A stretch of 33,732 nucleotides of DNA from Betaproteobacteria bacterium RIFCSPLOWO2_12_FULL_62_13. Lineage in GTDB: Bacteria > Pseudomonadota > Gammaproteobacteria > Burkholderiales > SG8-41. Every line of letters begins with the position of its first letter. Position 1 is the stretch's first letter. Below the pieces are notes generated by a model that was not told the origin of the DNA, ran no database searches, and saw nothing but the letters and a program-made list of their open reading frames with translations. Both the position numbers and the translations under genes were made by a program. This document shows, piece by piece, positions 15,041 through 33,732 of this stretch. The stretch covers positions 1 through 33,732 of the forward strand of contig MERG01000017.1 in the NCBI GenBank assembly GCA_001771985.1. Direction: 5' to 3'.

Positions 15041-15823
15041 TTGGTGACAGCCCGCAAGCGAACGGTAGGAACTTTTTTAGCGTTGACATTGACTGCGGTG
15101 GCCCCCGTTGCCGGCGCGGCATATACCGAGCAGGCCGTGGCGAAGGGCGGCAGCATCAGCGGCAAAGTGACTTTCCAGGGAGTACTCCCCGCGGACGCGG
15201 TGGAAAAGATCACGATCACCAAGAATCCCGAGGTCTGCGACGAGGACAAGACCGGTTATCGCGAAGTGGTCTGGGTCGATGTCAAGGACGGCGCATTGCG
15301 CGGCGCTTTCGTGTTCATCGACAAGATCGACGCCGGCAAGAAGTGGCCCGCGCCCAAGGCCGCCAAGTATGTGGTCGACCAGAAGGGCTGCCGGTTCCGT
15401 CCCTGGGCGCAGGTAATGAAGAGCGGCCCGCTCACGATCAAGCACAGCGATCCGGCGACGGTGCTGCACAACATCAACGCGCGCGAAATGATCGGCGTGG
15501 AGAAGAACCGGATTGTCAGGCGCACCATCTTCAACTTCGCCCAGCCCGACCCGGGCGAGATCGTCAAGGAGCTGAGGACGCAGCGCTCGCATTACGTATC
15601 CCTCAACTGCGAAGCGCACAACTTCATGTTCGGTTTCATGATGGCCCCCGAGCACCCCTACGCCGTGGTCGTCAACGAAGACGGTTCGTACACGCTCGAC
15701 GATGTGCCGCCCGGGGACTACACGGTCCTCGCCTGGCATCCCAGGTTCGGACTCAAGGAAGCGAAGGTCACCGTGCCCCCAGGCGGCAAGGCGCAGGCCA
15801 GCTTCACTTTCTCGGCCAAATGA
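15041..15823 (+). CDS. Exported cupredoxin-like/carboxypeptidase-regulatory-like protein
   Basis: Signal peptide; 'GGSISGKVTFQG', H-rich 'VLHNINAR', 'SLNCEAHNFMFGFMMAPEHPYAVVVNEDGSYTLDDVPPGDYTVLAWHP' with possible Cu ligands C-x2-H-x2-M. Start TTG 15041 or GTG 15044. Confidence 0.75.
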   Translation: MVTARKRTVGTFLALTLTAVAPVAGAAYTEQAVAKGGSISGKVTFQGVLPADAVEKITITKNPEVCDEDKTGYREVVWVDVKDGALRGAFVFIDKIDAGKKWPAPKAAKYVVDQKGCRFRPWAQVMKSGPLTIKHSDPATVLHNINAREMIGVEKNRIVRRTIFNFAQPDPGEIVKELRTQRSHYVSLNCEAHNFMFGFMMAPEHPYAVVVNEDGSYTLDDVPPGDYTVLAWHPRFGLKEAKVTVPPGGKAQASFTFSAK

Positions 15824-15852
15824 TTCGGCGAACGTCCAAGGAGGCGTTACGT

Positions 15853-17010
15853 ATGAGCACATCGACAAGATCCGCTTCGTTGCTGTGGTTGGCCGTTACG
15901 GGCGCGGCAGCGGCGGCCCTCATGGGCATGTCCGGACTTTCCTGTGCCCAGGGCTTCCCGGCGATCGGTCCGCTGCCGGCCAAGAAGGCGCCCAATCCAG
16001 GGCAGGTGGAGATGGGCCGGCGGCTGTTTTTCGATCCGCGCATCTCGGGCGATGGCGCGATCAGCTGCGCGAGCTGCCACGATCCGAAGCAGGGATTCAC
16101 GAGGCAGGTGGATAACAAGGGCAAGCCGCAGGCGCTGTCGGACGCCTATCCCGGCACGAGCCATTTCCGCAACTCGCCCACGCTCATCAATACCACTTAC
16201 AAGGCGGGCTTCGCGAATGCCGGCTGGGGCTGGGCCGGGCACATGGGCGCGGACCTGAACGACGTGGTGCGGGACATGCTCACCGAGACCCTGGTGATGA
16301 ACATGGACATGCGTCTCATGCACGAGCGCATGAAGCAGGACCCGGTGTACGTGAAGATGTGCCAGGAGAGTTTCAAGGGCGAGTGCAGCTCTGGCAAGGC
16401 GCGTAGCGCCCTGGTGGCCTTCATGGACACCCTCGTCTCCAGGGATGCGCCGTTCGACACTGGCAAGATGTCCGACGAGGCGAAGCGCGGACGGGGGCTC
16501 TTCGAAGGCAAGGCGGGCTGCATCGCGTGCCATAACGGGCCGTACTTCTCCGACGCCGAGCCGCACAACACGGGCGTGCCGGAGAACATGGAAGTCTTCA
16601 AGGACCCCGTGCGGCACCTGACTTACCGTGCAGCGATGTCCAATCACGGTGTGCCCAGGACCGAAATCTGGCGGCGCGACGTGGGCTATTTCCTCGCGAG
16701 CAAGAACTACGCCGACGTCGGTAAGTTCATCACGCCGACCTTGAGGGAACTCAAGTACACCGCGCCGTACATGCATAACGGCGTCTTCAGCACGCTGGCG
16801 GAAGTGGTCGATTTCTACGACCGAGGCGGCGGCCGCGACGATCCGCTGGCGGCGGAACTGAAGCCACTGGGGCTCAGCGCGGAGGAAAAGAAGGATCTGA
16901 TCGCCTTCCTCGAAAGCCTGAGCAGCACCGCCCCGGTGACAGTCCAGCCGGTGGCGGACATTCCCAAAGAGTACGCACCGATCAAGAACTTTCTGGGCGC
17001 GCACAACTAA
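15853..17010 (+). CDS. Di-heme cytochrome c peroxidase/MauG-like protein (idrP1/P2-like)
   Basis: Signal peptide; CASCH and CIACH; 'GRRLFFDPRISGDGAISCASCHDPKQGFT', 'TPTLRELKYTAPYMHNGVFSTLAEVVDFYDRGGG'. AAGGAGG RBS at ~15839. Confidence 0.92.
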   Translation: MSTSTRSASLLWLAVTGAAAAALMGMSGLSCAQGFPAIGPLPAKKAPNPGQVEMGRRLFFDPRISGDGAISCASCHDPKQGFTRQVDNKGKPQALSDAYPGTSHFRNSPTLINTTYKAGFANAGWGWAGHMGADLNDVVRDMLTETLVMNMDMRLMHERMKQDPVYVKMCQESFKGECSSGKARSALVAFMDTLVSRDAPFDTGKMSDEAKRGRGLFEGKAGCIACHNGPYFSDAEPHNTGVPENMEVFKDPVRHLTYRAAMSNHGVPRTEIWRRDVGYFLASKNYADVGKFITPTLRELKYTAPYMHNGVFSTLAEVVDFYDRGGGRDDPLAAELKPLGLSAEEKKDLIAFLESLSSTAPVTVQPVADIPKEYAPIKNFLGAHN

Positions 17011-17026
17011 GCATGGAGGTCGAACG

Positions 17027-18244
17027 ATGAGACCGAGCAATGTAGCACTGTATCTGCCGGTGCTTCTGATGTGCGGATTTTTGGCCGCGGGCGCGGCGAA
17101 CGTGCTGGCCGCGGGGGATCCGCCGCGGCTGGCGCCGCTGCCGCCGGTGCCGGAGCCCTCCGACAACAAGACGACCAAGGCGAAGGCCGAGCTCGGCAGG
17201 CTCCTGTTCTTCGATCCCAAGATCACCGGCGATGCGAGCCTCTCCTGCGGTGACTGCCACGTACCGAGGCAGGGCTGGGGTTTGGCCGATCCGATCTCCC
17301 GCGGCTATCCGGGTACCGTCCACTGGCGCAACTCCCAGACTGTGGTGAATACCGCCTACCTCGCGAAGCTCTTCTGGCAAGGCGATGCCGGAAGCCTCGA
17401 GGCCCAGGCCGAGGCGGCGAACACCGGCGCGGTCGCCGGCAACGGCTCGAACGACGTCATGGAGGCCAGGCTGCGCCAGACCCCGGAATATATCAAGCGC
17501 TTCAGGGAGGCCTTCGGCACCGAGCGGCCGCTCATCAACGACGCGTGGTACGCGATCGCCGCCTTCGAGCGGGCCGAGCTCATCCAGAAGGACAACCCCT
17601 TGGACCGCTATCTGACGGGCGACAAGAACGCGCTGTCGGCGAAAGCGGTCAAGGGAAAGCAGCTCTTCGAGGGCAAGGCCAACTGCATCCAGTGCCACAA
17701 CGGCCCCATGCTCACGGACGAGAAGTACTACAACCTGGGCGTGCCGCGGCCGAAGGAGTTCGAGGAGACAGGGCTCAACCAGGTCACCTATCGCTGGGAG
17801 ATCTACCAGAAGGGGCTCCACGAGCAGCGCTACCGGCAATGGAAGGATGATCCGGGGCTTTATCACACCACCGCGTGGGTGCGGGATGCCGGCAAGCACC
17901 GCACCGCGCCCCTTCGCTACATCAAGTACACCGCGCCCTACATGCACGCGGGGCAGTTCTTCACCCTGGAAGAAGTCATCGACTTCTACGACAAGGGCGG
18001 CGGCGAGAACGAGTTCACCAAGCGCTACGGCAACAAGACCAGGATCCTGAAGCCCTTGAATCTGACCAAGGACGAGAAGGAGGCGCTGATAGCGTTTCTC
18101 GAAGAGCTGAGCGGTGAGGAGATCAAGATGGCGGTTCCCAAGGTGCCATCGTACGCGGTGAAGCCCGACGTACCCGGGCTGACGCAGGCGCAAGCGAAGC
18201 GCATCGGCCTCGAGAGGCATCTCCCCGCAATTGGGAAGAAATAA
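17027..18244 (+). CDS. Di-heme cytochrome c peroxidase/MauG-like protein (idrP1/P2-like), second copy
   Basis: CGDCH and CIQCH; 'GRLLFFDPKITGDASLSCGDCHVPRQGW', 'YIKYTAPYMHAGQFFTLEEVIDFYDKGGG'. Confidence 0.92.
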   Translation: MRPSNVALYLPVLLMCGFLAAGAANVLAAGDPPRLAPLPPVPEPSDNKTTKAKAELGRLLFFDPKITGDASLSCGDCHVPRQGWGLADPISRGYPGTVHWRNSQTVVNTAYLAKLFWQGDAGSLEAQAEAANTGAVAGNGSNDVMEARLRQTPEYIKRFREAFGTERPLINDAWYAIAAFERAELIQKDNPLDRYLTGDKNALSAKAVKGKQLFEGKANCIQCHNGPMLTDEKYYNLGVPRPKEFEETGLNQVTYRWEIYQKGLHEQRYRQWKDDPGLYHTTAWVRDAGKHRTAPLRYIKYTAPYMHAGQFFTLEEVIDFYDKGGGENEFTKRYGNKTRILKPLNLTKDEKEALIAFLEELSGEEIKMAVPKVPSYAVKPDVPGLTQAQAKRIGLERHLPAIGKK

Positions 18245-18254: not shown

Positions 18255-18812
18255 ATGGCTACGTGCAAGAACGACAGCGGTTTTCAGGGCGCCTGCATGA
18301 CGCGCAGGGCCTTCCTGTTCCGCAGCGGCGCTGCGGCGGTGGGAACGGTCGCGCTTCCGAGCCTTGCCGGGTTCGAGGGCAAGGCGCTCGCCGCGCAGGT
18401 GGCGCGCTACCCGAGAATGAAGATCGGCAAGCTGAGCCAACTGGTCAAGGACAAGCCGGTGCTCTTCAACTACCCGGACAAGGGCGCGGGTTCGCAGAGC
18501 CTGCTCGTCAAGCTCGGTGTTCCCGCGGGCGGCGGCATCGGTCCCGAGGGCGACGTGGTCGCCTTCAACTCCCAGTGCACGCACATGGGCGCGCCGATGG
18601 GCGGGAATTACCAGCCCGCGCACCAGGCGCTCGGGCCATGCGCGTTCCATCAGACCACGTTCGACCTCACGCGGCACGGCATGGTTATTGCGGGCCACGC
18701 GACGGAAAGCCTGCCGCAGGTGCTGCTGGAGCTGAAAGGCGATGACATCTACGCGGCGGGAATGCTCGGGCTCATCTACGGCCGCTATGACAACCTGAAG
18801 ACAAAGGCATAG
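18255..18812 (+). CDS. idrB: Rieske [2Fe-2S] small subunit of AioB/IdrB type with Tat signal
   Basis: 'MTRRAFLFRSGAAAVGTVALPSLAGF' Tat signal; Rieske ligands 'CTHMGAPMGG...GPCAFHQTTFDL'; lies directly upstream of the Mo subunit. RBS AAGGAG at 18243. Confidence 0.85.
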   Translation: MATCKNDSGFQGACMTRRAFLFRSGAAAVGTVALPSLAGFEGKALAAQVARYPRMKIGKLSQLVKDKPVLFNYPDKGAGSQSLLVKLGVPAGGGIGPEGDVVAFNSQCTHMGAPMGGNYQPAHQALGPCAFHQTTFDLTRHGMVIAGHATESLPQVLLELKGDDIYAAGMLGLIYGRYDNLKTKA

Positions 18813-18823: not shown

Positions 18824-21517
18824 ATGGCTGCGAAACATTCAACACCGTTCTATCAGCCGCCGGACAAGGTACCCCTTCCTCCGGCCAATGCCGAGACCTT
18901 CACCACGTGCTGCGACTACTGCGTCGTGGCTTGTGGCTTCAAAGTGTTCCGCTGGCCGGCAGGCAGTCCGGACGGCGGCCCGAAGAAGAACCAGAATGCC
19001 CTCAAGCGGGACTATCCGTTGGGCCCGCTGGCCGCTGGCTGGGTGGGGCCCAACCAGTACACCCAGGCGTTTTTCAACGGCAAGCTCTACAACATCGCCG
19101 TGGTCGCCGACCCGGATGCCAAGGTCGTGAACGTCGGCGGCACCCACAGCATCCGCGGCGGTTGCATCGCGCAGAAGGTGTACAACCCGCAGAAACCGAC
19201 GCAGGACCGGCTGCTCCATCCCATGGTCCGCGTCAACGACATCCTGATGCCGGTGACCTGGGACTTCGCGCTGGACATCGCCGCGGAAGTGTCCAAGCAC
19301 GTGATCGCGCAGCACGGCGAAGAAGCCTGGGCGCTGAAGTACTACAGCTACCAGTTCTTCGAGAACACCTATGCGCTCTCGAAACTCGCGCTGAAGAGCA
19401 TCGGCACGCCGGCGATCGCCGAGCACGACCATCCCTCCAAGGTGGACGCGGCGCCCGGCTGGACGGATATCGGCTACGACATCTTCAGCGCCGCCTACGA
19501 GGATTTCGCGCTGGCGGACTGCATCCTGGTTTCCGGGACCGATCCCTTCGAGACCAAGTCGAACCTGTGGGAGTACTGGTTCCTGAAGGGGATCCGCGAG
19601 AACAAGACCAAGCTCATCATGGTCAATCCGCGCAAGACGAGCGGTTTGGCGTACGCCGAAAAGCACGGCGGCCTGCACATCGACGTCGTGCCCGGCTCGG
19701 ACACGCCGGTTCACATGGCGATCGCCAGGGTGATCCTGGAGAATGGCTGGGAGGACAAGGAGTTCATCAAGAACTGGGTGAACAACTTCTGGGAAACTGA
19801 CTCCGGCTTCGGCCGGGGAACGCGCAACACGCCTTGGCAGTGGCGCACGATCTGGGGCATGTTCCAGGTGAACGGCTTCGACGACTGGAAGAAGTGGCTG
19901 CTCGCGCAGGAGGAGTCCAGGCCCGAAGTGGCGGCGAAAATCGCGGCGATCGATCCGAAGAAGATCTACCAAGCAGCCGAAATGATGGCCAAGCCCAAGC
20001 CGAACGGCGAGCGCGTCAAGACCACGATCTGCATGGAGAAAGGTAACTACTGGTCGAACAACTATCTCAATACCGCCTCCATCGGCAACCTGGGCGTGAT
20101 CCTTGGCTGCGGAGGGAAACCCGGGCAGGTCATCACCCGCTTGGGCGGCCACCAGCGCGGCGGCTCGACGGGCGGCCCGTACCCCGGCATGAAGTCGCCG
20201 TACAAGGTGCCGGGCAGGCGGCGCCTCGAGCTGGACGTGGATCGCTGGTTGGAGTCCGGCCACATGCACTTCGCTTATGTCGTCGGCACGACCTGGATCC
20301 AGTCGATGGCCGGATCTTCGGCGCTGGAAGATGCGTTCAAACGCTACGTGAAGCTCAACCCGCACCAGGTGAGGACCCTCAACAAGCAGGCGATCATCGC
20401 GACGCTGAAGAAGCGTGTGGATGGCGGCGGGCTGGTGGTGGTGAACCAGGACATCTACCTGCGCAACCCAATCGGCAACCAGTACGCCGACATCGTGCTG
20501 CCCGCCGCGACCTGGGGCGAAGAAGACTTCGTCCGGGCGAACGGCGAACGGCGCATGCGACTGTATTCCAAGTTCTACGACGCGCCTGGAGAAGCGCTGC
20601 CCGACTGGAAGATCGTCGCCATGCTCGGGCAAAAGATGGGCTTCGAGGGCTACGACTGGAAGGACGCGAACGAAGTTTTTGAAGAAACTTGCCGGTTCTC
20701 GCGCGGCTCGCGCAAGGACTACAACGCCATCCGCGTGATCGCCCGGCGCAAGGGAATGCGCGCGCACGACTTTCTGCGCGCCTACGGCACGACGGGGTTG
20801 CAGGCGCCGCTGCTGATCGACGGCGACGCGATCATCGAGACCAAGCGGCTGCACGACTACAACCGCAAGGACATCCCGGAAACAGGCCCGGAAGGCGCGA
20901 CCATGCACAACAAGCGCTTGCTCGCGTTCAACACCCAGACGGGCAAGCTCAACTTGCTGAAGACACCGTGGAAGTACTGGTCGGACTTCTACGCGTTCAT
21001 GCAGCCCAAGGGCGACGAGCTGTGGGTCACCAACGGGCGCATCAACGAGATCTGGGAATCCGGTTTCGACGACTACGCGCGGCGGCCGTACACGCAGCAG
21101 CGCTGGCCGGTGAACTTCGTCGAGATCCACCCCGAGGACGCCCGGGCGCGAGGCATCGAGTCGGGCGACTGGGTGGTCGTCGAATCCGACCGGGTGCCGG
21201 TGCAGACGGACCTCAACCTGGGCGTGAAGGACGGCGAGATGTGGTTCGACGGTCTGATGAAACGCGGCCACATCAAGCTCGCCTCCGGGCAGTTCTCGGC
21301 GGTGGCGATCGTGACCCCGGCGATCAAGAAGGGCGTCGCCTTCACGAACTTCCTGCACGAGAATTCTCCGGCCAACGCCATTACGCCGAGGGTTCCGGAC
21401 CCGATCAGCCAGAACTACCGCTTCAAGCTCGCGCACGCGACCATCATGAAGATCGGCGAATCGGGGTACAAGCGAAGCTTCGCCCAGATGAGCTTCAAGA
21501 GGAGAGACATCGCCTGA
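18824..21517 (+). CDS. idrA: Molybdopterin oxidoreductase large subunit, AioA/IdrA clade (putative iodate reductase-like)
   Basis: 897 aa; CxxCxxxC 'TTCCDYCVVACGFKVFRWPAG' as in AioA/IdrA [3Fe-4S] proteins; DMSO reductase family features ('GNLGVILGCGGKPGQVITRLGGHQRGGS', 'NQYADIVLPAATWGEEDFVRANGERRMRL'). idr rather than aio assignment rests on the two adjacent di-heme peroxidases. Confidence 0.8.
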   Translation: MAAKHSTPFYQPPDKVPLPPANAETFTTCCDYCVVACGFKVFRWPAGSPDGGPKKNQNALKRDYPLGPLAAGWVGPNQYTQAFFNGKLYNIAVVADPDAKVVNVGGTHSIRGGCIAQKVYNPQKPTQDRLLHPMVRVNDILMPVTWDFALDIAAEVSKHVIAQHGEEAWALKYYSYQFFENTYALSKLALKSIGTPAIAEHDHPSKVDAAPGWTDIGYDIFSAAYEDFALADCILVSGTDPFETKSNLWEYWFLKGIRENKTKLIMVNPRKTSGLAYAEKHGGLHIDVVPGSDTPVHMAIARVILENGWEDKEFIKNWVNNFWETDSGFGRGTRNTPWQWRTIWGMFQVNGFDDWKKWLLAQEESRPEVAAKIAAIDPKKIYQAAEMMAKPKPNGERVKTTICMEKGNYWSNNYLNTASIGNLGVILGCGGKPGQVITRLGGHQRGGSTGGPYPGMKSPYKVPGRRRLELDVDRWLESGHMHFAYVVGTTWIQSMAGSSALEDAFKRYVKLNPHQVRTLNKQAIIATLKKRVDGGGLVVVNQDIYLRNPIGNQYADIVLPAATWGEEDFVRANGERRMRLYSKFYDAPGEALPDWKIVAMLGQKMGFEGYDWKDANEVFEETCRFSRGSRKDYNAIRVIARRKGMRAHDFLRAYGTTGLQAPLLIDGDAIIETKRLHDYNRKDIPETGPEGATMHNKRLLAFNTQTGKLNLLKTPWKYWSDFYAFMQPKGDELWVTNGRINEIWESGFDDYARRPYTQQRWPVNFVEIHPEDARARGIESGDWVVVESDRVPVQTDLNLGVKDGEMWFDGLMKRGHIKLASGQFSAVAIVTPAIKKGVAFTNFLHENSPANAITPRVPDPISQNYRFKLAHATIMKIGESGYKRSFAQMSFKRRDIA

Positions 21518-21548: not shown

Positions 21549-23744
21549 GTGAAGCGGGCCATGTCGCTTTCCCACGCAAGCGTTCAATCCGGGGTGCTTG
21601 GCGCAACGGACGCAGCCGGCCCCGGCGCCCGGGCCCGGGTCGTCGAGGCGCTTCGCGGCGCGCTCGCGAGCGACAGCGCAGTGACGCGGTGCTCGGCCGT
21701 GAGGGCGCTGGAAAGGCTGGATTGCCGCGACGGGAGACCGGCGCAAGAGCTCATCGGGCTGCTGCGCGACCCGGATCCCGACGTCCGGGCGGACGCCGCC
21801 GCCGCGCTCGGGCGCATGCGGGTTGCGGAAGCGACCGGGGCGCTGATCGAAAACCTCGAGCGCGATCCGGAAGGCGAGGTGCGCAGCGAAGCAGCCAAAG
21901 CGCTCGGCCGGATCGGCTCGCGCACCGCCGTCGAGCCGTTGATCAGCTGCTTCAAGGCGAAGGGCTATCCCGAGCTCGACCACTTTGCGGGGAACATCGG
22001 GTTTGGACCCTGGTGGGAAGTCCAGCGCCAGGCGCTCGCCGCGCTCGGCGAGATCGGCGATGAGCGGGCCGCTCAGCCCGTGATCGAGGCGCTCGCCGAC
22101 GACGACTCCGAGGACCTGCAGGAAACCGCTTTCAGGGTGCTGGCCCGGCTGAACGGCACGCAGGCGAAGGCGCTGCTGATCGGGCAGTTGAAAACGGGCA
22201 ACCGGCAGGCGCGGCGGCGCGCCGCGAGGTTCCTTGCGGCGTTGTCCGAGCTGCGCGGGGTGCGCGCCGGCTTTCCCCCCGAATTCATTCCGCCGTTGCT
22301 CGATGCACTGCTCGACCCGGAGGCAGCGGTGCGAATCGAGGCGGCCCGCGCACTGGCGGCAAGCGGCGAGCCGACGGCGCTGGTGCCGCTCACTCTGTTA
22401 CTCGGCGACCCGGAGGCTGAGGTGCGCAGGGAAGTTGTCTCGCTGCTCGCTGCAATGCGCGACGAACGCGTGCTCAAGCGGCTCCATGCGCTGCTGGGCG
22501 AACCGGATCCGGCATTGAAGCGCAGCGTCGCACGCGTGCTCGGAGACATCGGCGATGCGCGTTCGGCCGCTCCGTTGAGCGCGCTGCTCGAAACCGGGGA
22601 CGCGGACCTGCTCTACGAGATCGTCTGCGCGCTCGGAAAGATCGCTCGCCCGGGTGCGGAAGAAAAACTTGCCGTAATCCTGGCGGACGCAAAGGCGCAT
22701 CACCCGGTTCGCGTCCAGGCAGCCCGGGCGCTCGGTCGCATGCGCGGGAAGGGCGGCCCCGAGCGGCTCGCGCGCTGCGTTTTCGACGCGGATGAACGGG
22801 TCGCGCATGCGGCGCTCTGTGCGCTCGCCGAAATGGATCCCGAAGGCGCGCCCGCGAGGCTTGCGGATCTGCTCGAAGCGACTGCACCCGCGCAGGATTC
22901 GAGCGGGGCAAGCGTTCCGCCGCGAACCGAGGTCCCGCGCGAACTGCAGGACATGGTCGCCGGCCAGAGCGCCCGGACGTCGACCCTCGCTGCCATTTTT
23001 TTCGCACGCAGCGAGGGCGCCGCGCAACCTGGCGCGGCCTCACCCGAGCCGCGGCCGGCGTTTGCAAACGGGGCGCGCGTTCTGGCGGTGCGGCTGCTGG
23101 GCGAATGCGCGAGCCCTGGGGCGCGGGCGATCGAGGCTTTGGAGAAGGCGTGCCGGTCGAGCGACGGCGCGCTGCGCAGGGAGGCGCTGCTCGCCCTCGG
23201 GCGCATCGGCGGTCGGCAGGGGCTTGGCGCACTGCTCTCTGGGCTCGAGGACGAGGCACGCGAAGTGAGGCTCGCGGCGCTCGAGGGGCTCTGCGGCCTG
23301 CACGACGTGCCCGACATCGCCGGGCGGCTCGCCGCGCTGTGCGAGGACGCCGACCCGGACGTGCGCGCTCGGGCGGTTGAGGCGCTTGCGGCGGCCGGGG
23401 GACCCGAGGCGGCGCCGCGCCTGGCGCGCGCCCTGGAGGACGAGCGCATGGAGGTGTGTCGCGCGGCGCTCAACGCCCTGACCGGCGAGACCTACACGCC
23501 GGAATGCCGAGCAGCGGTCGTGAACCTGATGTTCCGGTTCTCAGGCGAGCTGCGCTTTGAAGCGGCTGCGACCCTGAGGCGGCTGAACGATTTCGCGCCG
23601 GCTCTGTGGTTGCTCGCTACCCTCGACGACGCCGGGAAGGAAGAGGTGCACTGGATCTGCATCGACGCCTTGGCCGAGATGCATGCTGCCACGTCCACGA
23701 TGGCCTCTGGCGTCGCGCGGGCGGTGACGGAGGGCGGACGATGA
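21549..23744 (+). CDS. HEAT-repeat (PBS-lyase HEAT-like) protein
   Basis: Many repeats such as 'LLRDPDPDVRADAAAALGRM', 'LLGDPEAEVRREVVSLLAAM', 'LCEDADPDVRARAVEALAAAGG'. ATGA overlap with the next gene; alternative ATG at 21561. Confidence 0.9.
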   Translation: MKRAMSLSHASVQSGVLGATDAAGPGARARVVEALRGALASDSAVTRCSAVRALERLDCRDGRPAQELIGLLRDPDPDVRADAAAALGRMRVAEATGALIENLERDPEGEVRSEAAKALGRIGSRTAVEPLISCFKAKGYPELDHFAGNIGFGPWWEVQRQALAALGEIGDERAAQPVIEALADDDSEDLQETAFRVLARLNGTQAKALLIGQLKTGNRQARRRAARFLAALSELRGVRAGFPPEFIPPLLDALLDPEAAVRIEAARALAASGEPTALVPLTLLLGDPEAEVRREVVSLLAAMRDERVLKRLHALLGEPDPALKRSVARVLGDIGDARSAAPLSALLETGDADLLYEIVCALGKIARPGAEEKLAVILADAKAHHPVRVQAARALGRMRGKGGPERLARCVFDADERVAHAALCALAEMDPEGAPARLADLLEATAPAQDSSGASVPPRTEVPRELQDMVAGQSARTSTLAAIFFARSEGAAQPGAASPEPRPAFANGARVLAVRLLGECASPGARAIEALEKACRSSDGALRREALLALGRIGGRQGLGALLSGLEDEAREVRLAALEGLCGLHDVPDIAGRLAALCEDADPDVRARAVEALAAAGGPEAAPRLARALEDERMEVCRAALNALTGETYTPECRAAVVNLMFRFSGELRFEAAATLRRLNDFAPALWLLATLDDAGKEEVHWICIDALAEMHAATSTMASGVARAVTEGGR

Positions 23745-26858: not shown

Positions 26859-27838
26859 GCGGAGGCGGCGGCGTGCTGAGGCGGAGGATCAACCGGTTCT
26901 GGACGACGGTGGCGGCGCTCGCCGTCATCTACGCGCTCGTGAGGTGGGGCATACCGGTGGCCTCGCGGCAGATCACCGGCATGCCCTTCCCGCTCCCGGT
27001 GCCGGGCGCGCTGGTGTTCATCTACATGACGCTGGCGGTGGTCGCGCTCGCTATCCTCGTGACGTTTTCCGACGAGCATCTGGACGAGTTCGTGCGGCCA
27101 GTGAAGGCGTTCCTGCGCGGTGAGCACGGCAGGCTGCCGCGGACGGTGGTGCTCGTCGCCGTTCCCCTGCTCGTGGGCTGGCAGGTCTGGGGCGTCACGG
27201 CGCCCGAGGTCGCGGTGCCGGCCGCGCTGCGCATCCAGCATCCGTCGTCTAACTTCCCGAAGAGCTTCGAGACGCTCAAGAACCCGCTCGCCAACCCGAG
27301 CGACGCCGACGTCCAGGCGTTCGTCGAGCAAGCGAAGGCGAACGCGGTGGCGTTCATTCCGCAGGTCGCGGCCGACGTGAAGCGCTGGCGCGAAGCGAAC
27401 GCGGACAAGCATCCGCTTGACTTCATTCCGACCGCGCCGATGAAGAAGTTCGTCGCGGCGCTGAAGGCGGGCGCGGTGGATCCGCAGACGGGCAGGGCGG
27501 CGCTCGTCGAGAAGTACCTATTCGAAGGTCGCGCGCTCTATGCGATGAACTGCCGGGCCTGCCACGGCGACAGCACGGGCGGCGACGGTCCGATGGCAGA
27601 CGGCTTCAAGCTGCGCCCGATCAACTTCACCGATAGCGGCACCATCGAAACCATCGTTGAGGGCTACACCTTCTGGCGCGTGACGAACGGCGGCCCGGGG
27701 TTGCCCACCGAGGCGACGCCATGGGACTCGGCGATGCCGGAGTGGAAGCTGAGCCTCACGGAAGGGGAACGCTGGAAGATCATCCTGGCGGAGTACGACC
27801 TGGCGCAGAAGACGCCGCGCATTCCGGAGCAGCACTGA
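26855..27838 (+). CDS. Membrane-anchored mono-heme cytochrome c
   Basis: Two N-terminal TM segments; 'YLFEGRALYAMNCRACHGDSTGGDGPMADGF'. ATGA overlap with previous gene. Confidence 0.9.
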   Translation: MSGGGGVLRRRINRFWTTVAALAVIYALVRWGIPVASRQITGMPFPLPVPGALVFIYMTLAVVALAILVTFSDEHLDEFVRPVKAFLRGEHGRLPRTVVLVAVPLLVGWQVWGVTAPEVAVPAALRIQHPSSNFPKSFETLKNPLANPSDADVQAFVEQAKANAVAFIPQVAADVKRWREANADKHPLDFIPTAPMKKFVAALKAGAVDPQTGRAALVEKYLFEGRALYAMNCRACHGDSTGGDGPMADGFKLRPINFTDSGTIETIVEGYTFWRVTNGGPGLPTEATPWDSAMPEWKLSLTEGERWKIILAEYDLAQKTPRIPEQH

Positions 27839-27839: not shown

Positions 27840-29486
27840 ATGACCGCGCGCCGAAGCACGAAAACACTCGCGCTCGGCGCGGCCGCGGCGCTCGCCCTAG
27901 CGCTCGCGGCGGGCGCGCACGCCACCGACCGGCCGTCGAAATCGAAACCCGCCGTGACGCCCGAGCTTCTCGAGCAGGGCAGCGCCGTCTACTTCAGGCG
28001 CTGCAGCTTCTGCCACGGCCTCATAGGCGACGGCGATGGGCCGGCGGCGGAGTTCCTCGATCCGCGGCCGCGCGATTTCACGCTCGGCACCTACAAGTTC
28101 CGCACCACGGAGAGCGGCAAACTGCCGACCGACGAGGACCTCTTCCGCACGGTGAGCCGCGGCCTACCCGGCACCGCAATGCAGGCGTTCGACAACGAGG
28201 TGATCAAGAATGGGCTCACCGAGGATGAACGGTGGGCGGTGATCGCCTACATCAAGACGTTCGCGCGCGAATTCAAGGACCCCGCATTCGACCCCTACAA
28301 GCAGGTCATCGCGCTGCCGAAGAACCTGCCGGCGATGAGCGAGGCGACCATCGCGAAAGGCAAGGAGGTCTTCGAACACGCCAAGTGCTGGGAGTGCCAC
28401 GGCAAACAGGGGCGCGGCGACGGACAGAAGGCGTTCGACCGCACCGACGACTGGGGCTTCCCGATCCGCATCCGCAACGTGACGCACCCGTGGAAGATCA
28501 AGGGCGGCACGGCGGTCGAGGACATCTACATGCGGTTCACGACCGGCATCAACGGCACGCCGATGCCTTCGTTCGTCGAGGGGGTCAAGAAGGAAGAGGA
28601 CCGCTGGTACCTCGCCGCCTACATCAAGTCGCTGCAGCACAAGCTGACCGAGCACCAGGTGCTGAAACCGCAGCGCGCCGAGGGCGAGGTTCCGTCGGCG
28701 CCGGAGGACGCGGCGTGGGCAAAGGCCCAGCCGATGGACATGCGGCTCGCGGGTCAGGTGGTGGCGCCGCCGCGCTGGCAGAACCCGAGCGTCGAACTCG
28801 CCACGGTGCGGGGGGTGGCGAACGACAAGGAGATCGCGTTCCTCGTGCAATGGGACGATCCGTTCAAGGACGCGATCCACAAGGAGGACCAGGAGTTCGA
28901 CCCGAAGGACATCGCCAAGGTCGGCGCGTACAACTCTTACGTCGATCCGTACAAGATGGTGCCGCGCAAGCTCGAGACGTTCCGCGATGCGGTGGCGCTC
29001 CAATTCCCGGTCAAGCTTCCCGAAGGCACCAAGAGGCCGCACTTCCTGCGGGGCGACGCGTCCAATCCGGTTCACCTGTGGGTGTGGAAGGCCGACTTGG
29101 AAGAGCAAGGCAAGCGCTCGGCCGAGGAGGCGATCGCGCGCGGCTGGAAGCAGCCCGCCAAGGCGCTGCCCGACAAGCAACAGCTGGTGAGCGGCAAGGC
29201 GCAGTGGAAGGAAGGCCGCTGGAGCGTGGTCATGAAACGCGCGCTCGTCACCGGCGACGGCTCCGGCGTGCAGTTTGTTCCCGGCGCGTTCATTCCCATG
29301 TCGATCAACGTCTGGGACGGCTCGAACGGCGAGCACGGCCTGCTGATGGCCGTGTCGACGTGGCACTACGTGTTCCTAGAGGCGCCCACGCCGATGCGGG
29401 TGTACGGCTATACCGGTTTTTCGGTGCTGCTCACCGGCGTCCTGGGTTTCGGGCTGATGAGGAAAGCGCAAAGGAGTGAATCATGA
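27840..29486 (+). CDS. Di-heme cytochrome c fused to ethylbenzene dehydrogenase gamma/NxrC-like heme-binding domain, C-terminal TM
   Basis: CSFCH and CWECH in the N-terminal half; C-terminal half 'PMDMRLAGQVVAPPRWQNPSVELATVRGVANDKEIAFLVQWDD...FIPMSINVWDGSNGEHGLLMAVSTWHYVFLE' resembles EB_dh; TM tail 'TGFSVLLTGVLGFGLMRKAQ'. Confidence 0.85.
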   Translation: MTARRSTKTLALGAAAALALALAAGAHATDRPSKSKPAVTPELLEQGSAVYFRRCSFCHGLIGDGDGPAAEFLDPRPRDFTLGTYKFRTTESGKLPTDEDLFRTVSRGLPGTAMQAFDNEVIKNGLTEDERWAVIAYIKTFAREFKDPAFDPYKQVIALPKNLPAMSEATIAKGKEVFEHAKCWECHGKQGRGDGQKAFDRTDDWGFPIRIRNVTHPWKIKGGTAVEDIYMRFTTGINGTPMPSFVEGVKKEEDRWYLAAYIKSLQHKLTEHQVLKPQRAEGEVPSAPEDAAWAKAQPMDMRLAGQVVAPPRWQNPSVELATVRGVANDKEIAFLVQWDDPFKDAIHKEDQEFDPKDIAKVGAYNSYVDPYKMVPRKLETFRDAVALQFPVKLPEGTKRPHFLRGDASNPVHLWVWKADLEEQGKRSAEEAIARGWKQPAKALPDKQQLVSGKAQWKEGRWSVVMKRALVTGDGSGVQFVPGAFIPMSINVWDGSNGEHGLLMAVSTWHYVFLEAPTPMRVYGYTGFSVLLTGVLGFGLMRKAQRSES

Positions 29487-30139
29487 AACGCAAGACCACC
29501 GTACTGCTGGCTGCCGCCCTGCTCGCGCTTGCGAGCGGCACCGTTCGCGCCGATGCCGCCGCGGGGGCGAAGCTCTTCCAGGCGAAGAAGTGCCAGGAGT
29601 GCCATTACACCGACGGCCCGGCGAGGGAAAAGACGATCGCCGACCAATTGGCGAAGAAGGGCCCCGAGCTGTGGTACGCGGGCAGCAAGTTCCAGAAGGC
29701 GTGGCTCGCCAAGTGGCTGCAGGATCCCAAGCCAATCCGGCCACTGAAGTACAACTCGCTCACCGAGAAGAACTCGGGCAACCACCCAAAACTCGCCGCC
29801 GCCGACGCTGCCGCGGTGACCGATTTCCTGATGAGCCTGGTGTCGAAGGACATCCAGGCGGGTCTGGTCAAGCCCAAGATGAACCCGAAGGGCCGGCTGG
29901 TGTTCACCAAGAGCATGCCGTGCAGCGGCTGCCACCAGTTCCCCGGACCGAAATTCACCGGCGGGTTGAACGGCCCCTCGCTCGCCGCCGCGGGCGAGCG
30001 GCTCAACCCGGACTGGATTCTCGCTTACCTCAAGGATACGAAAACGTTCAAGCCGGTCAGGCAGATGCCCGTCTTCGCCGGCCTGCTGAACGAAAAAGAC
30101 ATGCAGGCGGTGGCGGAGTTCATCTCCACCTTCAAATAG
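29483..30139 (+). CDS. Periplasmic di-heme cytochrome c
   Basis: Signal peptide; CQECH and CSGCH. Confidence 0.9.
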   Translation: MKRKTTVLLAAALLALASGTVRADAAAGAKLFQAKKCQECHYTDGPAREKTIADQLAKKGPELWYAGSKFQKAWLAKWLQDPKPIRPLKYNSLTEKNSGNHPKLAAADAAAVTDFLMSLVSKDIQAGLVKPKMNPKGRLVFTKSMPCSGCHQFPGPKFTGGLNGPSLAAAGERLNPDWILAYLKDTKTFKPVRQMPVFAGLLNEKDMQAVAEFISTFK

Positions 30140-30174: not shown

Positions 30175-30540
30175 ATGAGCAGATTCGTCAACCTCGCAGC
30201 ACTTCTGATTGCAGTCGGCCTTCCGGTGAGCGCGCCAGCGCGCGCCGCCGACGGCGAGCAGCTCTTCAAGTTCTATTGCGCGCAGTGCCATGGGCTGCAA
30301 GGCAAAGGCGACGGCCCGAACGTCACCAAGGATTTCCCGGTCGATCCGCGCAACTTCACCAAGGCCGACGAGATGAACAAGCTCTCGGATGCGGACATCC
30401 GCAACGTGATCCTGGATGGCGGGCCGGTGGCGGACAAGTCGCCCATGATGCCGCCGTGGGGCAAGACTCTGTCCAAGGCGGAAGTGGATGCGCTCGTCAA
30501 GCATCTGCGCAATCTGTGCAAGTGCAAGGGCAAGCCGTGA
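30175..30540 (+). CDS. Small mono-heme cytochrome c
   Basis: 121 aa; signal peptide; 'GEQLFKFYCAQCHGLQGKGDGPNVTKDFPVDPRNFT'. Confidence 0.9.
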   Translation: MSRFVNLAALLIAVGLPVSAPARAADGEQLFKFYCAQCHGLQGKGDGPNVTKDFPVDPRNFTKADEMNKLSDADIRNVILDGGPVADKSPMMPPWGKTLSKAEVDALVKHLRNLCKCKGKP

Positions 30541-30650: not shown

Positions 30651-30688
30651 GAGCCGGTTTTTTCTGACTTGTCGCCTGAGGTTTTGAG

Positions 30689-30811
30689 ATGAAGCTCAGC
30701 CACATGGACACGCGCGAGCAGGGCGGCACCGACAGGTACGCCTGGGCGGGACCGGCATTATTTGTCGTCGTGCTGGTCGCGCTAGTCGTGTTCTTCTGGT
30801 GGTTTCTCTGA
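30689..30811 (+). CDS. Short single-TM protein (40 aa)
   Basis: ATG..TGA: MKLSHMDTREQGGTDRYAWAGPALFVVVLVALVVFFWWFL. Confidence 0.6.
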   Translation: MKLSHMDTREQGGTDRYAWAGPALFVVVLVALVVFFWWFL

Positions 30812-30823
30812 AGGAGGCCGGAC

Positions 30824-30940
30824 GTGAAGGACCATCTGGTTCCCCTCGTGGTGGCGTTTGCCGTCTGCGCGCTCGTCTTTCTCGGGCTCGACTACACGAT
30901 CATGAAGATGATGGGTCTGACGCTCATCTATCAGCCTTGA
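30824..30940 (+). CDS. Short single-TM protein (38 aa)
   Basis: GTG..TGA: MKDHLVPLVVAFAVCALVFLGLDYTIMKMMGLTLIYQP; preceded by AAGGAGG at 30811. Confidence 0.65.
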   Translation: MKDHLVPLVVAFAVCALVFLGLDYTIMKMMGLTLIYQP

Positions 30941-30951
30941 AAGGGGCGCGC

Positions 30952-32778
30952 GTGAAGACGGGTTCGTGGTCGAAGGTCTGGATACCGTGGCTGCTGCTCG
31001 TGGCCGTCGCAATGCTTTTCGGCGCGGATCTGCTCGCGCCGGACGTGGCCATCGCCGCCGAGCCGGCCGCGGCCGCGGAGGCCGCCAAGGCGCCCGCCTT
31101 CCCGCCCGCGCCGAAGCTCTCCGCCGCCGACTACCCGCAGATCGCGGGCGTAAACGGGCGCGTCGCCGTCTGGCTCGCGGCACAGCTGCACCTGTGGTTC
31201 GCCGCGTTCGTGCTCGCGGTGCCGATCTTCGTGTTCGTGATCGAGGCGATCGGCATGGCAACGCGCGACGAGCGCTACGACAGCCTCGCCTACGAGTTCA
31301 TCAAGGTGAGCATCACGGCCTACTCGCTCACCGCCATTCTCGGCGGGCTGCTGCTGTTCTTCCTGATCATCTTCTATCCCCACCTGTTTCAGTACCTCGC
31401 GACCATCTTCAGGAAGAGCATGATCTATTACGCGCTGCTGTTCTTCGCGGAGAGCGGCGTCCTCTACCTGTATTACTACGGGTGGCACTGGCTTCAGGGC
31501 GGGTTCAGGAAATGGATGCACCTCACGCTGGGGCTCGTGCTGAACGCGGTCGGCACGACCTTGATGTTCCTCGCCAACGCCTGGGTCACGTTCATGATGA
31601 GCCCGGCGGGGGTGGATGCCGCAGGCGTGTTCAGCGGCGACACCTGGGCGGCGATCCACAACGCGCTGTGGAACCCGATCAACATCCACCGCGTAGTCGC
31701 GAACGTCGCTTTCGGCGGATCGATCGTCGGCGCTTACGCGGCGTACCGGTTCCTGAACGCCGGCACGGCCGAACAGAAGGCCCACTACGACTGGATGGGC
31801 TATACCGCGAACTTCGTCGCGATCTCGGCGCTGCTGCCGCTGCCCTTCGCCGGGTACTACCTCACCGCCGAGATCTACGCCTACAGCCAGCAGATGGGCA
31901 TCACCTCGATGGGCGGGATCTTCGCGTGGCTGTTCATCATTCAGGCGGTGCTGATCGGCACGCTGTTCCTGTCGGCGAACTACTACCTATGGTGCGGCAT
32001 GGGGCGCAGCGACGGCGCGGTCCGCTACAACGGCTACGTCAAGTACCTCGCGATCGTGATCGTCGGCGCGTTCCTGGTCTGGTTCACGCCGCACACGCTG
32101 GTACTCACCAACGAGGAGCTGAAGGCGCTCGGCGGGCCGTACCACAAGTTCCTGGGGCCGCTCGGCATCATGCCCGCGAAAAACATTGCCGTGAACACGA
32201 TGATCGTGTTCACGACGCTCAGTTTCCTGATGTACCGCCGCGCCAACAAGATTCCCACGGTGTCCTGGGTCAAGGCCGGCAATGCCGCGCTGGCCGGGCT
32301 GTTCGCCGCTGGAATCCTGAACATCCTGTTCCTCGGCGTCTATCACGGGTACTTCACCAACACCGTATACAAGGTCGCCTCTTCCATCCCGCAGGTGCTG
32401 ACGACGCTCACCATCATCGTCGTCAGCACGGTCATCGACACCTTCATGTACCGCGGCGCAAAGGAGGTTGCGCCGCTGCGCTGGGGCCGGGTGCCCGACC
32501 GCGCGCAGTACGCGCTTTTTTTGCTGGCCGTGGCGTTCACCTGGCTGATGGGGCTGATGGGCTACATCCGTTCCGGGCTTCGCCAGCACTGGCACGTGAC
32601 CGATATCTTCCGTGACGCCTCGCCCGATGCGTTCACGCCGACGCTCGGCTACGCGGCCAACGTGGTGTCGGTTGGCGCCCTCATCTTCATGGCGCTGGTC
32701 ATCTTCGTGTTCTGGGTCAGCCAAGTGAGCGCCAGGCACACGGCCGCAGCCGGTTACTGGAAGGCCGAGGCCGCGTGA
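30952..32778 (+). CDS. CydA-like membrane protein, copy 2
   Basis: 'GRVAVWLAAQLHLWFAAFVLAVPIFVFVIEAIG', 'NPINIHRVVANVAFGGSIVGAYAAYRF'; clear paralog of 23741..25888. GTG start. Confidence 0.87.
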   Translation: MKTGSWSKVWIPWLLLVAVAMLFGADLLAPDVAIAAEPAAAAEAAKAPAFPPAPKLSAADYPQIAGVNGRVAVWLAAQLHLWFAAFVLAVPIFVFVIEAIGMATRDERYDSLAYEFIKVSITAYSLTAILGGLLLFFLIIFYPHLFQYLATIFRKSMIYYALLFFAESGVLYLYYYGWHWLQGGFRKWMHLTLGLVLNAVGTTLMFLANAWVTFMMSPAGVDAAGVFSGDTWAAIHNALWNPINIHRVVANVAFGGSIVGAYAAYRFLNAGTAEQKAHYDWMGYTANFVAISALLPLPFAGYYLTAEIYAYSQQMGITSMGGIFAWLFIIQAVLIGTLFLSANYYLWCGMGRSDGAVRYNGYVKYLAIVIVGAFLVWFTPHTLVLTNEELKALGGPYHKFLGPLGIMPAKNIAVNTMIVFTTLSFLMYRRANKIPTVSWVKAGNAALAGLFAAGILNILFLGVYHGYFTNTVYKVASSIPQVLTTLTIIVVSTVIDTFMYRGAKEVAPLRWGRVPDRAQYALFLLAVAFTWLMGLMGYIRSGLRQHWHVTDIFRDASPDAFTPTLGYAANVVSVGALIFMALVIFVFWVSQVSARHTAAAGYWKAEAA

Positions 32779-33593
32779 GTAATTTCCTCAAGGTCGTGGT
32801 GTTCAGCCTGCTGGTGATCGCGTTTTTCGCCGGCTTTTCCAATTTCGGCGTCCCGCAGATCGAGCCGGCGCCGCCGCCCAAGGAGGAGAAGCTGGAGCTC
32901 GGCGCGATGACCATCGACCAGTTCGTCGCGCTGGGCAAGAAGCTCTTCGAAGGCAAGGGCACCTGCACGCTGTGCCACAACCCCGTAGGCGGCCGCGCCC
33001 CGCTGCTCGACCGCGCCGCTGCGGCGGCCGCCGAGCGCCTGAACGATCCGCGCTACAAAGGCAAGGCGAAGAACGTCGAGGATTATCTGTACGAGTCGAT
33101 GGTGGCGCCGTCCGCGTACGTGGTTTCCGGCTTCGGGAAGGCGGGAACCAACGACACGGAGAGCCCGATGCCCGACGCGTCCTCGGGCAGCATCCGTTTG
33201 TCCGAGGCGGAACTGAGGGCTGTGGTCGCGTACCTCCAGGACCTGAGCGGGGTCGAGGTGACGGTCAAGATCCCGACCGAGGTCGGAACAGAGCAAAAAG
33301 CCGAAGCGAAGCCCGCCCAGCGCCCGCCGGCCAAGAACGCGGAGGAGCTGATTGCGCAGTTCGCCTGCACCGCCTGCCACAAGATCGGGGCGCAGCCGGG
33401 CGGGCCGATCGGGCCGGACCTCAGCAAGATCGGGGCCACTAAGGATGCCGAATACCTGCGGCGCGCAATCCTCGACCCCAATGCCGACGTGGCGAAGGGC
33501 TTCGCGCGGGGCTTGATGCCAGCCAACTACGGCGAGCAGCTCTACGCCAGGGAGCTGGAAATGCTGGTGGCGTATCTCGTTGCGTTGAAATAG
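32775..33593 (+). CDS. Membrane-anchored di-heme cytochrome c (paralog of 25881..26858)
   Basis: N-terminal TM; CTLCH and CTACH; GTGA overlap with copy 2 of the CydA-like gene. Confidence 0.9.
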   Translation: MSNFLKVVVFSLLVIAFFAGFSNFGVPQIEPAPPPKEEKLELGAMTIDQFVALGKKLFEGKGTCTLCHNPVGGRAPLLDRAAAAAAERLNDPRYKGKAKNVEDYLYESMVAPSAYVVSGFGKAGTNDTESPMPDASSGSIRLSEAELRAVVAYLQDLSGVEVTVKIPTEVGTEQKAEAKPAQRPPAKNAEELIAQFACTACHKIGAQPGGPIGPDLSKIGATKDAEYLRRAILDPNADVAKGFARGLMPANYGEQLYARELEMLVAYLVALK

Positions 33594-33609
33594 CGGGGAC
33601 GAGCACGCG

Positions 33610-33732
33610 ATGAAATGGCGAGTCCCCAGGCTGGCGCAGGCGGTGCTGACCGTCGCCGGCATCTACGCCGCGTTCAAGCTCGTGTTCGGTGTCCTCCTCG
33701 GCCAGCCGATCCCCTCGAGCCTGCTCACCATG
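33610..33732 (+). CDS. 5' end of a membrane protein, probably the paralog of the cytochrome c at 26855 (runs off window)
   Basis: ATG 33610, MKWRVPRLAQAVLTVAGIYAAFKLVFGVLLGQPIPSSLLTM, open to the end; resembles the N-terminus of 26855..27838. Confidence 0.5.
   Translation, partial: MKWRVPRLAQAVLTVAGIYAAFKLVFGVLLGQPIPSSLLTM

Follow-up and report, generated by a model that had tools for sequence, protein, structure and literature searches.

The genome of Betaproteobacteria bacterium RIFCSPLOWO2_12_FULL_62_13, an uncultured lineage, carries a predicted operon in which an iodate reductase (idr)-type core is followed by CydA-like proteins and a set of c-type cytochromes, and this coupling is conserved in other genomes. 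The genes, their conserved linkage, the promoter context, the portability of the CydA-like module and its co-occurrences were obtained directly. They may reflect an oxyanion-reducing enzyme of the periplasm together with a CydA-like complex dedicated to its electron transfer, the reading that we tentatively favour. The window, that is the whole stretch of 33,732 nucleotides analysed, lies on contig MERG01000017.1 of a MAG-like draft genome (92.9% complete, 7.6% contamination). The block contains the following genes.

15041..15823, plus strand: Cbpd, secreted carboxypeptidase-regulatory-like protein, first operon gene (Pfam CarboxypepD_reg)
15853..17010, plus strand: CCP1, dihaem cytochrome c peroxidase, IdrP-like 1 (CCP_MauG 5.8e-32; two CXXCH)
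17027..18244, plus strand: CCP2, dihaem cytochrome c peroxidase, IdrP-like 2 (CCP_MauG 1.1e-36; two CXXCH)
18255..18812, plus strand: Rieske [2Fe-2S] small subunit, IdrB-like, with a twin-arginine signal (TIGR02694 115.8, cut-off 95.65; CTH-X18-CAFH, TRRAFLF)
18824..21517, plus strand: MoA, molybdopterin large subunit, IdrA-like (Molybdopterin, Rieske_3 3Fe-4S; TIGR02693 372.4 over 359.05; tree)
21549..23744, plus strand: HEAT-repeat protein with no evident signal peptide (HEAT_2 4.4e-70)
23741..25888, plus strand: CydA-like protein 1, 715 aa (Cyt_bd_oxida_I 9e-09; K55 at the H19 haem-ligand position)
25881..26858, plus strand: dihaem cytochrome c (Pfam Cytochrom_C; two CXXCH)
26855..27838, plus strand: membrane-anchored monohaem cytochrome c (Cytochrome_CBB3)
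27840..29486, plus strand: fusion of two cytochrome c domains with EB_dh, like the haem-b subunit of type II DMSO reductases (EB_dh 2.1e-21, Cytochrom_C twice; TIGR03477 90.6 bits)
29483..30139, plus strand: dihaem cytochrome c opening the CydA2 module (Pfam; same place in L-NosZ-linked modules)
30175..30540, plus strand: monohaem cytochrome c (Pfam)
30546-30650, 30689-30811 and 30824-30940, plus strand: three small hydrophobic transmembrane proteins (read from the sequence)
30952..32778, plus strand: CydA-like protein 2, 608 aa, with extra transmembrane helices (Cyt_bd_oxida_I 2e-15)
32775..33593, plus strand: dihaem cytochrome c (Pfam)
33610..33732, plus strand: beginning of a second gene for a membrane cytochrome c, truncated at the contig edge (open frame MKWRVPRLAQAVL...; full gene in G003, a genome of the same genus)

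According to the gene models, everything from 15041 to the contig end forms a single plus-strand directon with intergenic distances of -8 to +38 nt, in agreement with an earlier note on this DNA that had described the genes as all on this strand and closely packed. The overlaps which it named at 23741, 25881, 26855 and 32775 are all real, and a fifth was found at 29483. It had also seen no obvious terminator, and indeed every terminator-like plus-strand hit inside the block falls within coding sequence and none is intergenic. Its 14 CXXCH motifs in eight proteins were recovered in a recount (2+2+2+1+2+2+1+2). The end of the window, up to which it had followed the block, is the contig edge at 33732, where the operon is cut. 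Beyond this point G003 has a second transmembrane cytochrome c (48%) and a second cytochrome c/EB_dh protein (37%). Moreover, the first and second small hydrophobic proteins are kept in that genome at 77% and 60%.

The following regulatory features were found upstream of the block and of a tetrapyrrole cassette that precedes it.

2948..5020, plus strand: HK1, sensor histidine kinase paired with the sigma-54 regulator (open reading frame)
5013..6398, plus strand: NtrC/AtoC-type sigma-54-dependent response regulator (Pfam Sigma54_activat, Response_reg and HTH_8; best NCBIfam match AtoC)
7143..7158, plus strand: candidate sigma-54 promoter TGGCATAGATATTGCG preceding the Usp-PCP gene (3 mismatches; G003 has TGGCACAGATTTTGCC in the corresponding position)
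14966..14981, plus strand: candidate sigma-54 promoter TGGCACGTTTGATGCT at the operon head (the sole site in the window with at most one mismatch)

The site at the operon head stands 60 nt upstream of 15041. Sites with two mismatches or fewer precede the first operon gene in 14 of 41 loci, against a background of 1.5%, and the same scan saw none before MoA, CydA1, cEbd or cytc2b. The site at 7143 taken alone is weak, three mismatches being chance level, and was kept because its counterpart in G003 is conserved. In G006 a relative of HK1 (62-70%) again neighbours this NtrC gene, immediately upstream of the CydA-like module. The genes atoS/atoC have also been reported upstream of idr in Azoarcus DN11 (PMC10149662).

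CydA-like genes lie inside the fetched flank in 31 of 41 CydA-positive relatives, and in each of these 31 they share the strand of the Mo gene. The coupling is conserved in Pseudomonadota, in SAR324 and in deltaproteobacterial MAGs, and it recurs in unbiased genome samples (G494, G1170, G1071, G1063, G1192, G1163 and G964). The arrangement of idrA with CydA-like and HEAT genes, which the earlier note had proposed to look for elsewhere, exists in many genomes, against the lack of synteny that it had named as a refutation; its further remark that it knew of no described idr locus with such an architecture agrees with our literature search, which found none in the available papers. The module occurs downstream or upstream of the core, in at least two gene orders, with at least ten label changes on the MoA tree. 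Since half of the 50 tested MoA genomes have the core and no CydA-like gene at all, the coupling is a variant repeatedly gained and lost, not a rule. MoA is present on named plasmids, there without CydA, and a plasmid search for CydA2 found none.

The CydA-like/cytochrome c module is portable and not idr-specific. It adjoins a clade III lactonase-type nitrous-oxide reductase (L-NosZ) in G108, G167, G509 and G721, with the tetrapyrrole cassette nearby in three of these four genomes, and a periplasmic nitrite-oxidoreductase (NXR)-like enzyme in two further genomes, namely an NxrA-like protein in G1185 (1628 bits to Kuenenia NXR 7b04) and a similar protein in G959. The L-NosZ-linked CydA2 sequences fall inside the same 13-row clade as that of the window (100/98), which points to swaps of partner. 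Among MoA genomes the co-occurrence of L-NosZ and CydA (7/25 versus 0/24) loses its significance when the structure of the tree is taken into account; this link rests on physical linkage in the four genomes. L-NosZ was not found in a search of the window's own genome. A 618-aa minus-strand frame in L136, considered as a partner gene, was rejected as the shadow of an L-NosZ gene on the other strand.

The tetrapyrrole cassette comprises three genes.

7219..9261 (start maybe 7285), plus strand: universal-stress protein with three PCP_red (BchB C-terminal) domains (Pfam)
9280..10614, plus strand: radical SAM/SPASM protein with PCP_red, NirJ2/AhbD-like (NCBIfam NirJ2 304.9 and AhbD 292.3 bits, both below the 500-bit equivalog cut-offs)
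10611..12071, plus strand: HemY-like flavoprotein of the protoporphyrinogen oxidase family (TIGR00562 222 bits, cut-off 97.85)

It is present in 24 of 25 CydA-like-positive MoA genomes versus none of 24 CydA-like-negative ones, and seven to eight of eight independent pairs agree (p about 0.008). Judging from this co-occurrence, the cassette probably makes or installs haem for the CydA-like unit, as a dedicated haem tailoring.

CydA-like protein 2 is predicted to have the fold of cytochrome bd subunit I, the ten best PDB matches of its AlphaFold model (pTM 0.78) all being to that subunit, and the sequence alignment to subunit I covers the N-terminal half only. No CydB-like gene occurs among the gene models of the window. 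The haem-ligand and proton-path residues of canonical subunit I are H19, E99, E107 and H186 (E. coli numbering). The H19, E107 and H186 positions are kept in CydA2, E99 is replaced by Tyr, and the C-terminal ligands lie beyond the alignable part. Moreover, the H19 and H186 haem-ligand positions are kept in 20 of 20 CydA2 sequences, which is compatible with an O2 site. The H19 position of CydA1 is lost in betaproteobacterial sequences (K in the window, G003, L048 and L083). Window-type loci have two CydA-like genes and many relatives just one.

The whole block can be pictured as a sigma-54-controlled respiratory operon built of three modules. The first would be the iodate-reductase-type core, with a periplasmic IdrA/IdrB-like Mo-Rieske enzyme, two IdrP-like peroxidases, Cbpd and HEAT. 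The second and third would be consecutive electron-transfer sets of CydA-like proteins without CydB, di- and monohaem c cytochromes, small transmembrane subunits and the NxrC-like cytochrome c/haem b fusion. Quinol would be oxidised at the CydA-like complex, whose c cytochromes would pass electrons to the Rieske subunit and on to the Mo centre; iodate or a similar high-potential oxyanion would be reduced in the periplasm and the peroxidases would clear oxidising by-products. In this scheme we infer the substrate, the direction of electron flow, the quinol donor, the haem tailoring and the role of HEAT.

What favours an electron-transfer role is that the module is also a neighbour of L-NosZ, which is a reductase of the periplasm, and of an NXR-like enzyme. 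The many idr-type genomes without the module weaken the idea of a dedicated complex. Oxidation of quinol is in turn made less probable by the loss of the Q-loop and quinol residues in related NXR-linked bd-like proteins (PMC3578206), by the lack of an evident quinol site in the residues or structure here, and by the conserved H19 and H186 positions of CydA2. The OR-N CydAA' proteins, similar to those of the window, are also read as putative cytochrome c-oxidising O2 reductases (PMC10839748). The earlier note had coupled the Mo enzyme to CydA-like complexes rather than to a bc1/oxidase route. The genetic coupling is conserved, but the "rather than" is unsupported, since cytochrome bc1-type genes and several haem-copper oxidase genes were found by search in the same genome; an exclusive CydA route is thus unproven.

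It is also possible, though we give it less weight than the favoured reading, that the two CydA-like proteins and the c cytochromes form a cytochrome c:O2 reductase of the OR-N CydAA' type. This could be a high-affinity oxidase removing O2 and paired through a common cytochrome pool with an O2-sensitive periplasmic reductase, or else the last step of a chain in which electrons from an oxidised inorganic compound reach O2 by way of the Mo enzyme. Such an activity has been proposed for OR-N1 and OR-N2 CydA together (PMC10839748, PMC12342949), Idr is reported to be O2-sensitive (PMC11445184), and the residues kept in CydA2, the pair of CydA-like genes and the linkage to an NXR-like enzyme, which fits a donor-to-O2 chain, would all agree with it. 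However, one would not expect a pure oxidase to be linked in an operon with L-NosZ, CydA1 has lost H19 in Betaproteobacteria, the E99 position is Tyr, and just one CydA-like gene is found in many relatives. The NXR cluster of Kuenenia, an anammox organism, also contains the related bd-like gene (PMC3578206), which likewise counts against this reading.

The core itself is idr-type by its gene order, cofactor motifs and regulators. The order CCP1-CCP2-Rieske-Mo is found in the window and in 70 of 70 loci with enough upstream sequence, and the published idr order is P2,P1,B,A (PMC10989891). The Rieske subunit carries the IdrB motif CXHX18CX2H and a Tat signal, and both IdrP-like proteins have two CXXCH each. 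In MoA the IdrA-type 3Fe-4S motif CX2CX3C...S corresponds to C30, C33 and C37, with Ser109 one residue past the published CX70S spacing. A tree that did not include characterised IdrA sequences places the MoA clade of the window (100/100) within an idr-like radiation with solo idr-type loci, far from AioA. As MoA is just about 48-59% identical to the solo idr-type relatives, homology does not prove iodate to be the substrate. Cbpd adjoins CCP1 in most relatives of this clade.

In 48 of 66 loci, irrespective of CydA, the gene after MoA is HEAT. It does belong to the operon, as had been claimed, but its assignment to the CydA module was ruled out because MoA-HEAT also occurs in 22 of 34 loci not scored CydA-positive. 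The cytoplasmic HEAT protein probably helps to assemble the Mo subunit. The Mo enzyme should be periplasmic, given the Tat signal on its Rieske partner, as established for idr, so that uniting the system in one membrane-bound complex amounts to guesswork.

It is improbable that the Mo enzyme is instead an arsenite oxidase (Aio) and that the operon encodes a chain for respiration with arsenite as donor. The NCBIfam names for its subunits are arsenite_ox_L (372.4, cut-off 359.05) and arsenite_ox_S, and the nearest solved structures are AioA; yet identity to most AioA proper is just 26-28%, with a deep split in the tree. The arsenite-site residues are His195, Glu203, Arg419 and His423 (A. faecalis numbering). 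His201, Arg439 and His443 are kept in the window, but Glu203 has become Ala209, mostly Ser in the clade. Moreover, CCP genes stand beside the Mo gene in all 70 scorable loci, whereas aio loci lack CCP (PMC8692401).

It is more improbable still that the core plus HEAT, on the one hand, and a CydA-like respiratory module of general use, on the other, are two independent transcription units that lie next to each other without functional link, for although the two are also found apart (CydA2 modules occur without MoA as well), this is countered by the 4-nt HEAT/CydA1 overlap, the 31-nt MoA-HEAT gap, the recurrence in several gene orders and the sigma-54 sites at the head only.

The module looks like a reusable electron-transfer plug-in. 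A wider proposal, which we regard as doubtful, is that together with the radical-SAM/HemY/PCP_red cassette it represents a horizontally portable and as yet uncharacterised member of the cytochrome bd superfamily that would conduct electrons from quinone to the periplasm, with specially modified haem and independently of bc1, and would serve several periplasmic oxidoreductases unrelated to each other, of IdrA type, L-NosZ and NXR-like. CydA-like proteins have long been noted beside nitrite oxidoreductase, and the general question becomes what the module does with an iodate-type or nitrous-oxide reductase partner. Iodine, N2O and nitrite metabolism would be linked through one common piece of respiratory hardware. 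The CydA-like genes and the Usp-PCP_red cassette can also be a marker splitting idr-type organisms into two kinds, and point to an undescribed candidate haem-tailoring cassette.

Compared with idrABP1P2 of Pseudomonas sp. SCT, Denitromonas sp. IR-12 and Azoarcus sp. DN11 (PMC8692401, PMC10149662), the block has in common the CCP-CCP-Rieske-Mo genes, the cofactor motifs, the Tat/Sec signals and a nearby sigma-54 regulator and kinase. The surroundings of published idr loci are reported as poorly conserved, and the available papers describe none with CydA-like, EB_dh-fusion or tetrapyrrole-cassette genes. The NXR clusters of Nitrospina, Nitrospira and Kuenenia (with a 14-TM "cytochrome bd-like oxidase", PMC3578206) likewise combine a periplasmic Mo enzyme, a CydA-like multi-TM protein, an NxrC-like haem-b subunit and mono- and dihaem c cytochromes, the bd-like proteins being likened by description. 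Their Mo enzyme is a type II DMSO reductase, whereas that of the window is of the AioA/IdrA branch with a Rieske partner and CCPs, and its large subunit best matches AioA-type models, not NxrA. A CydA2 search of three Nitrospinota genomes gave none at E<=1e-8. The OR-N type CydAA' (Murali et al. 2021, cited in PMC10839748), as described there, resembles window-type loci in having CydA-type proteins without CydB, two CydA-like genes and c cytochromes, a likeness by description and not a clade placement; a difference is that a haem ligand is missing from one of the two proteins in Betaproteobacteria. The L-NosZ loci share the same CydA2/cytochrome c module, but carry a copper enzyme where the window has a Mo enzyme.

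The reading of the genes from 15041 to 33732 as a conserved, co-regulated set of modules is well supported. The window is one entire contig (C17) of a genome of 5.88 Mb (469 contigs, 92.9% complete, 7.6% contamination), and its main features are as follows.

15041-15823, + strand, first gene of the operon (Cbpd)
15853-18244, + strand, CCP1 and CCP2
18255-18812, + strand, Rieske protein
18824-21517, + strand, IdrA-like Mo subunit (MoA)
23741-25888, + strand, CydA1, CydA-like protein
29483-30139, + strand, dihaem cytochrome c
30952-32778, + strand, CydA2, CydA-like protein
33610 to contig end, + strand, second membrane cytochrome c gene, cut by the end

As the earlier note had it, all plausible genes of this block lie on the + strand and are closely packed (spacing -8 to +38 nt), 14 CXXCH motifs are spread over eight proteins in the window gene models, and there is no obvious terminator, with no + strand terminator-like site in intergenic positions. 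A 287-nt gap, longer than any spacing inside the block, precedes 15041. The operon extends past the window, because the contig ends inside a gene. In a same-genus genome (G003) a collinear block, with a Mo subunit 87% identical, continues past this edge with the full second membrane cytochrome c gene and a second cytochrome c/EB_dh fusion.

The sole window site with at most one mismatch from TGGCACGNNNNTTGCW is at 14966-14981, 60 nt upstream of the first operon gene. Among relatives (at most two mismatches, GG/GC exact) a sigma-54 site precedes this gene in 14 of 41 loci, compared with 1.5% of random stretches, and none was found in 158 cases before the genes for MoA, CydA1, the cytochrome c/EB_dh fusion or the dihaem cytochrome c at 29483 (cytc2b). 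This supports a putative promoter solely at the operon head. Further upstream the histidine kinase gene HK2 (12483-14327) has an in-frame TGA at 12723-12725, and the preceding receiver gene (about 12080-12440) is apparently frameshifted at about 12327; these are either sequence errors or gene decay. A relative (L038) aligns across both parts of HK2.

Relatives came from a single scan of 85,488 species genomes, which gave 80 loci. In the window's own Mo clade all 17 tree members were scored as coupled (MoA plus a CydA-like protein); the module is downstream of the Mo gene wherever the fetched flank reaches it, and the few remaining members have a CydA-like gene elsewhere in the draft genome. 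Other lineages carry the CydA2 module upstream of CCP1 (e.g. L069, L087, L089, L103, L109), and further ones the CydA1 module downstream (L083, L090, L092, L102). The synteny proposed earlier recurs in other genomes; a CydA-like gene is within the fetched flank in 31 of the 41 CydA-positive loci, always on the strand of the Mo gene (31/31). CydA-like genes occur in 25 of 50 whole genomes and are lacking in 25, several of these being incomplete drafts. With at least 10 changes of the CydA label required on the Mo tree, the coupling has been gained or lost repeatedly. Two of the loci, L109 (Candidatus Thiomargarita nelsonii) and L103, place the idr-type core and CydA2 module in giant sulfur bacteria. 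Contig C50 of the window's genome (L030, about 890-1019) holds the remnant of a further IdrA-like Mo subunit gene, of which only the stretch for the C-terminal ~45 residues (50% identity) is left.

CydA2 was found in three others among 399 sampled Pseudomonadota genomes and in 15 others among 387 genomes of the window's class, counts that are not independent of the 85,488-genome scan because some assemblies are shared with its loci. One of the three (G494) has coupled idr-type genes; in G509 and G721, which have no MoA, the module adjoins a gene for L-NosZ, the clade III lactonase-type nitrous-oxide reductase (786 and 753 bits, cut-off 700). G108 and G167 present a contiguous same-strand block, cytc2b-cytc1-CydA2-cytc2c-TMcytc-cEbd-LNosZ-cytc-UspPCP-rSAM-AO. 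The L-NosZ-linked CydA2 nest inside the window's CydA2 clade (support 100/98), so partner enzymes have been swapped. Within the class, seven of the 15 carry MoA, or the CCP genes that go with it, in the same stretch of contig, two have a 1176-1179-aa Tat protein near the module (that of G1185 a full-length match to Kuenenia nitrite oxidoreductase subunit A, 1628 bits) and one (G852) has subunits of a type II DMSO reductase close by; the remaining five, some at contig ends, have no partner call. At L177, L180, L136 and L137 L-NosZ genes lie within or adjoin the CydA2/cytochrome c module, suggesting that it is their electron-donor pathway. Full-length periplasmic NxrA-like proteins are encoded at L218 (10426-13956, G1185) and L219 (4354-7893, G959), in genomes of the window's class, where they adjoin the CydA2 module and Usp-PCP/rSAM genes; both genomes may belong to nitrite oxidisers or nitrate reducers that have gone unrecognised.

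On the operon's upstream side (7219-12071) are genes for a Usp protein bearing three copies of the PCP_red domain, a radical SAM/SPASM-PCP_red protein closest to NirJ2/AhbD and a HemY-family flavoprotein scoring above the family cut-off (both NCBIfam). Among the genomes on the tree, Usp-PCP is present in 24 of the 25 scored CydA-positive and in none of the 24 scored CydA-negative, with 7-8 of 8 independent tree pairs in agreement (p about 0.008). Judging from protein families and co-occurrence, this cassette would serve the CydA-like unit by making or installing a haem. Another contig of the window's genome (C190, 11.3 kb; L139) bears a second CydA2 module, 58% identical, accompanied by cytochromes and by a Usp-PCP/rSAM/HemY cassette of its own.

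The N-terminal half of CydA2 aligns to the Pfam profile of bd subunit I. The ten best PDB matches of its AlphaFold model (pLDDT 75, pTM 0.78) are all cytochrome bd subunit I, with more helices in the model than in the canonical subunit; TM-scores by query length reach a modest 0.33-0.42, and for this reason statements on single residues are drawn from the sequence alignment. Positions H19, E107 and H186 (E. coli numbering) are conserved in 20 of 20 CydA2 and E99 is Tyr. In CydA1, Lys occupies the H19 position (window K55) in four sequences only (window, G003, L048, L083); the four that have lost this haem ligand are all betaproteobacterial by title or kinship. CydB was not found among the window gene models, and the genome also carries genes for a bc1-type cytochrome b and for several haem-copper oxidases.

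Electrons may, tentatively, run from quinol to oxyanion; the linkage of the module to L-NosZ favours flow from the membrane to periplasmic reductases. That same linkage speaks against flow from cytochrome c to O2, in which the CydA-like module would have an O2-reducing role. This is somewhat less likely; it is allowed by the linkage to NXR, by the retained haem-ligand positions and by the literature on OR-N, the CydAA' clades of the bd superfamily (PMC10839748, PMC12342949). NXR-linked bd-like proteins have been proposed to act on quinone, like alternative complex III (PMC3578206).

No described idr locus with this architecture was known to the earlier note and none came from the literature search, which is no proof as subscription papers fall outside its coverage; the same search held no description of the partner-swapping module or its link to the tetrapyrrole cassette. 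The individual parts are all of known kinds. The core has two MauG/CCP proteins (Pfam and NCBIfam), a Rieske protein above the arsenite oxidase small-subunit cut-off and a Mo subunit just above the large-subunit one (NCBIfam), models that do not discriminate between Idr and Aio. Plasmid-borne AioA is mostly 26-28% identical to the window Mo subunit, and AioA is set apart by a very long branch in a comparison that took in no characterised IdrA, so the substrate is inferred only. The arsenite-site Glu203 (A. faecalis AioA numbering) is lost and His195, Arg419, His423 and the 3Fe-4S cysteines are retained, equally in CydA-positive and CydA-negative relatives. The order CCP-CCP-Rieske-Mo, kept in 70 of 70 loci having enough upstream sequence, is identical to that published for idr clusters (PMC10989891). 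Moreover, the solo (CydA-free) loci of Azonexus and Burkholderiales have a kinase/sigma-54 pair upstream and match in this the idr locus of Azoarcus DN11, where such a pair is also upstream (PMC10149662).
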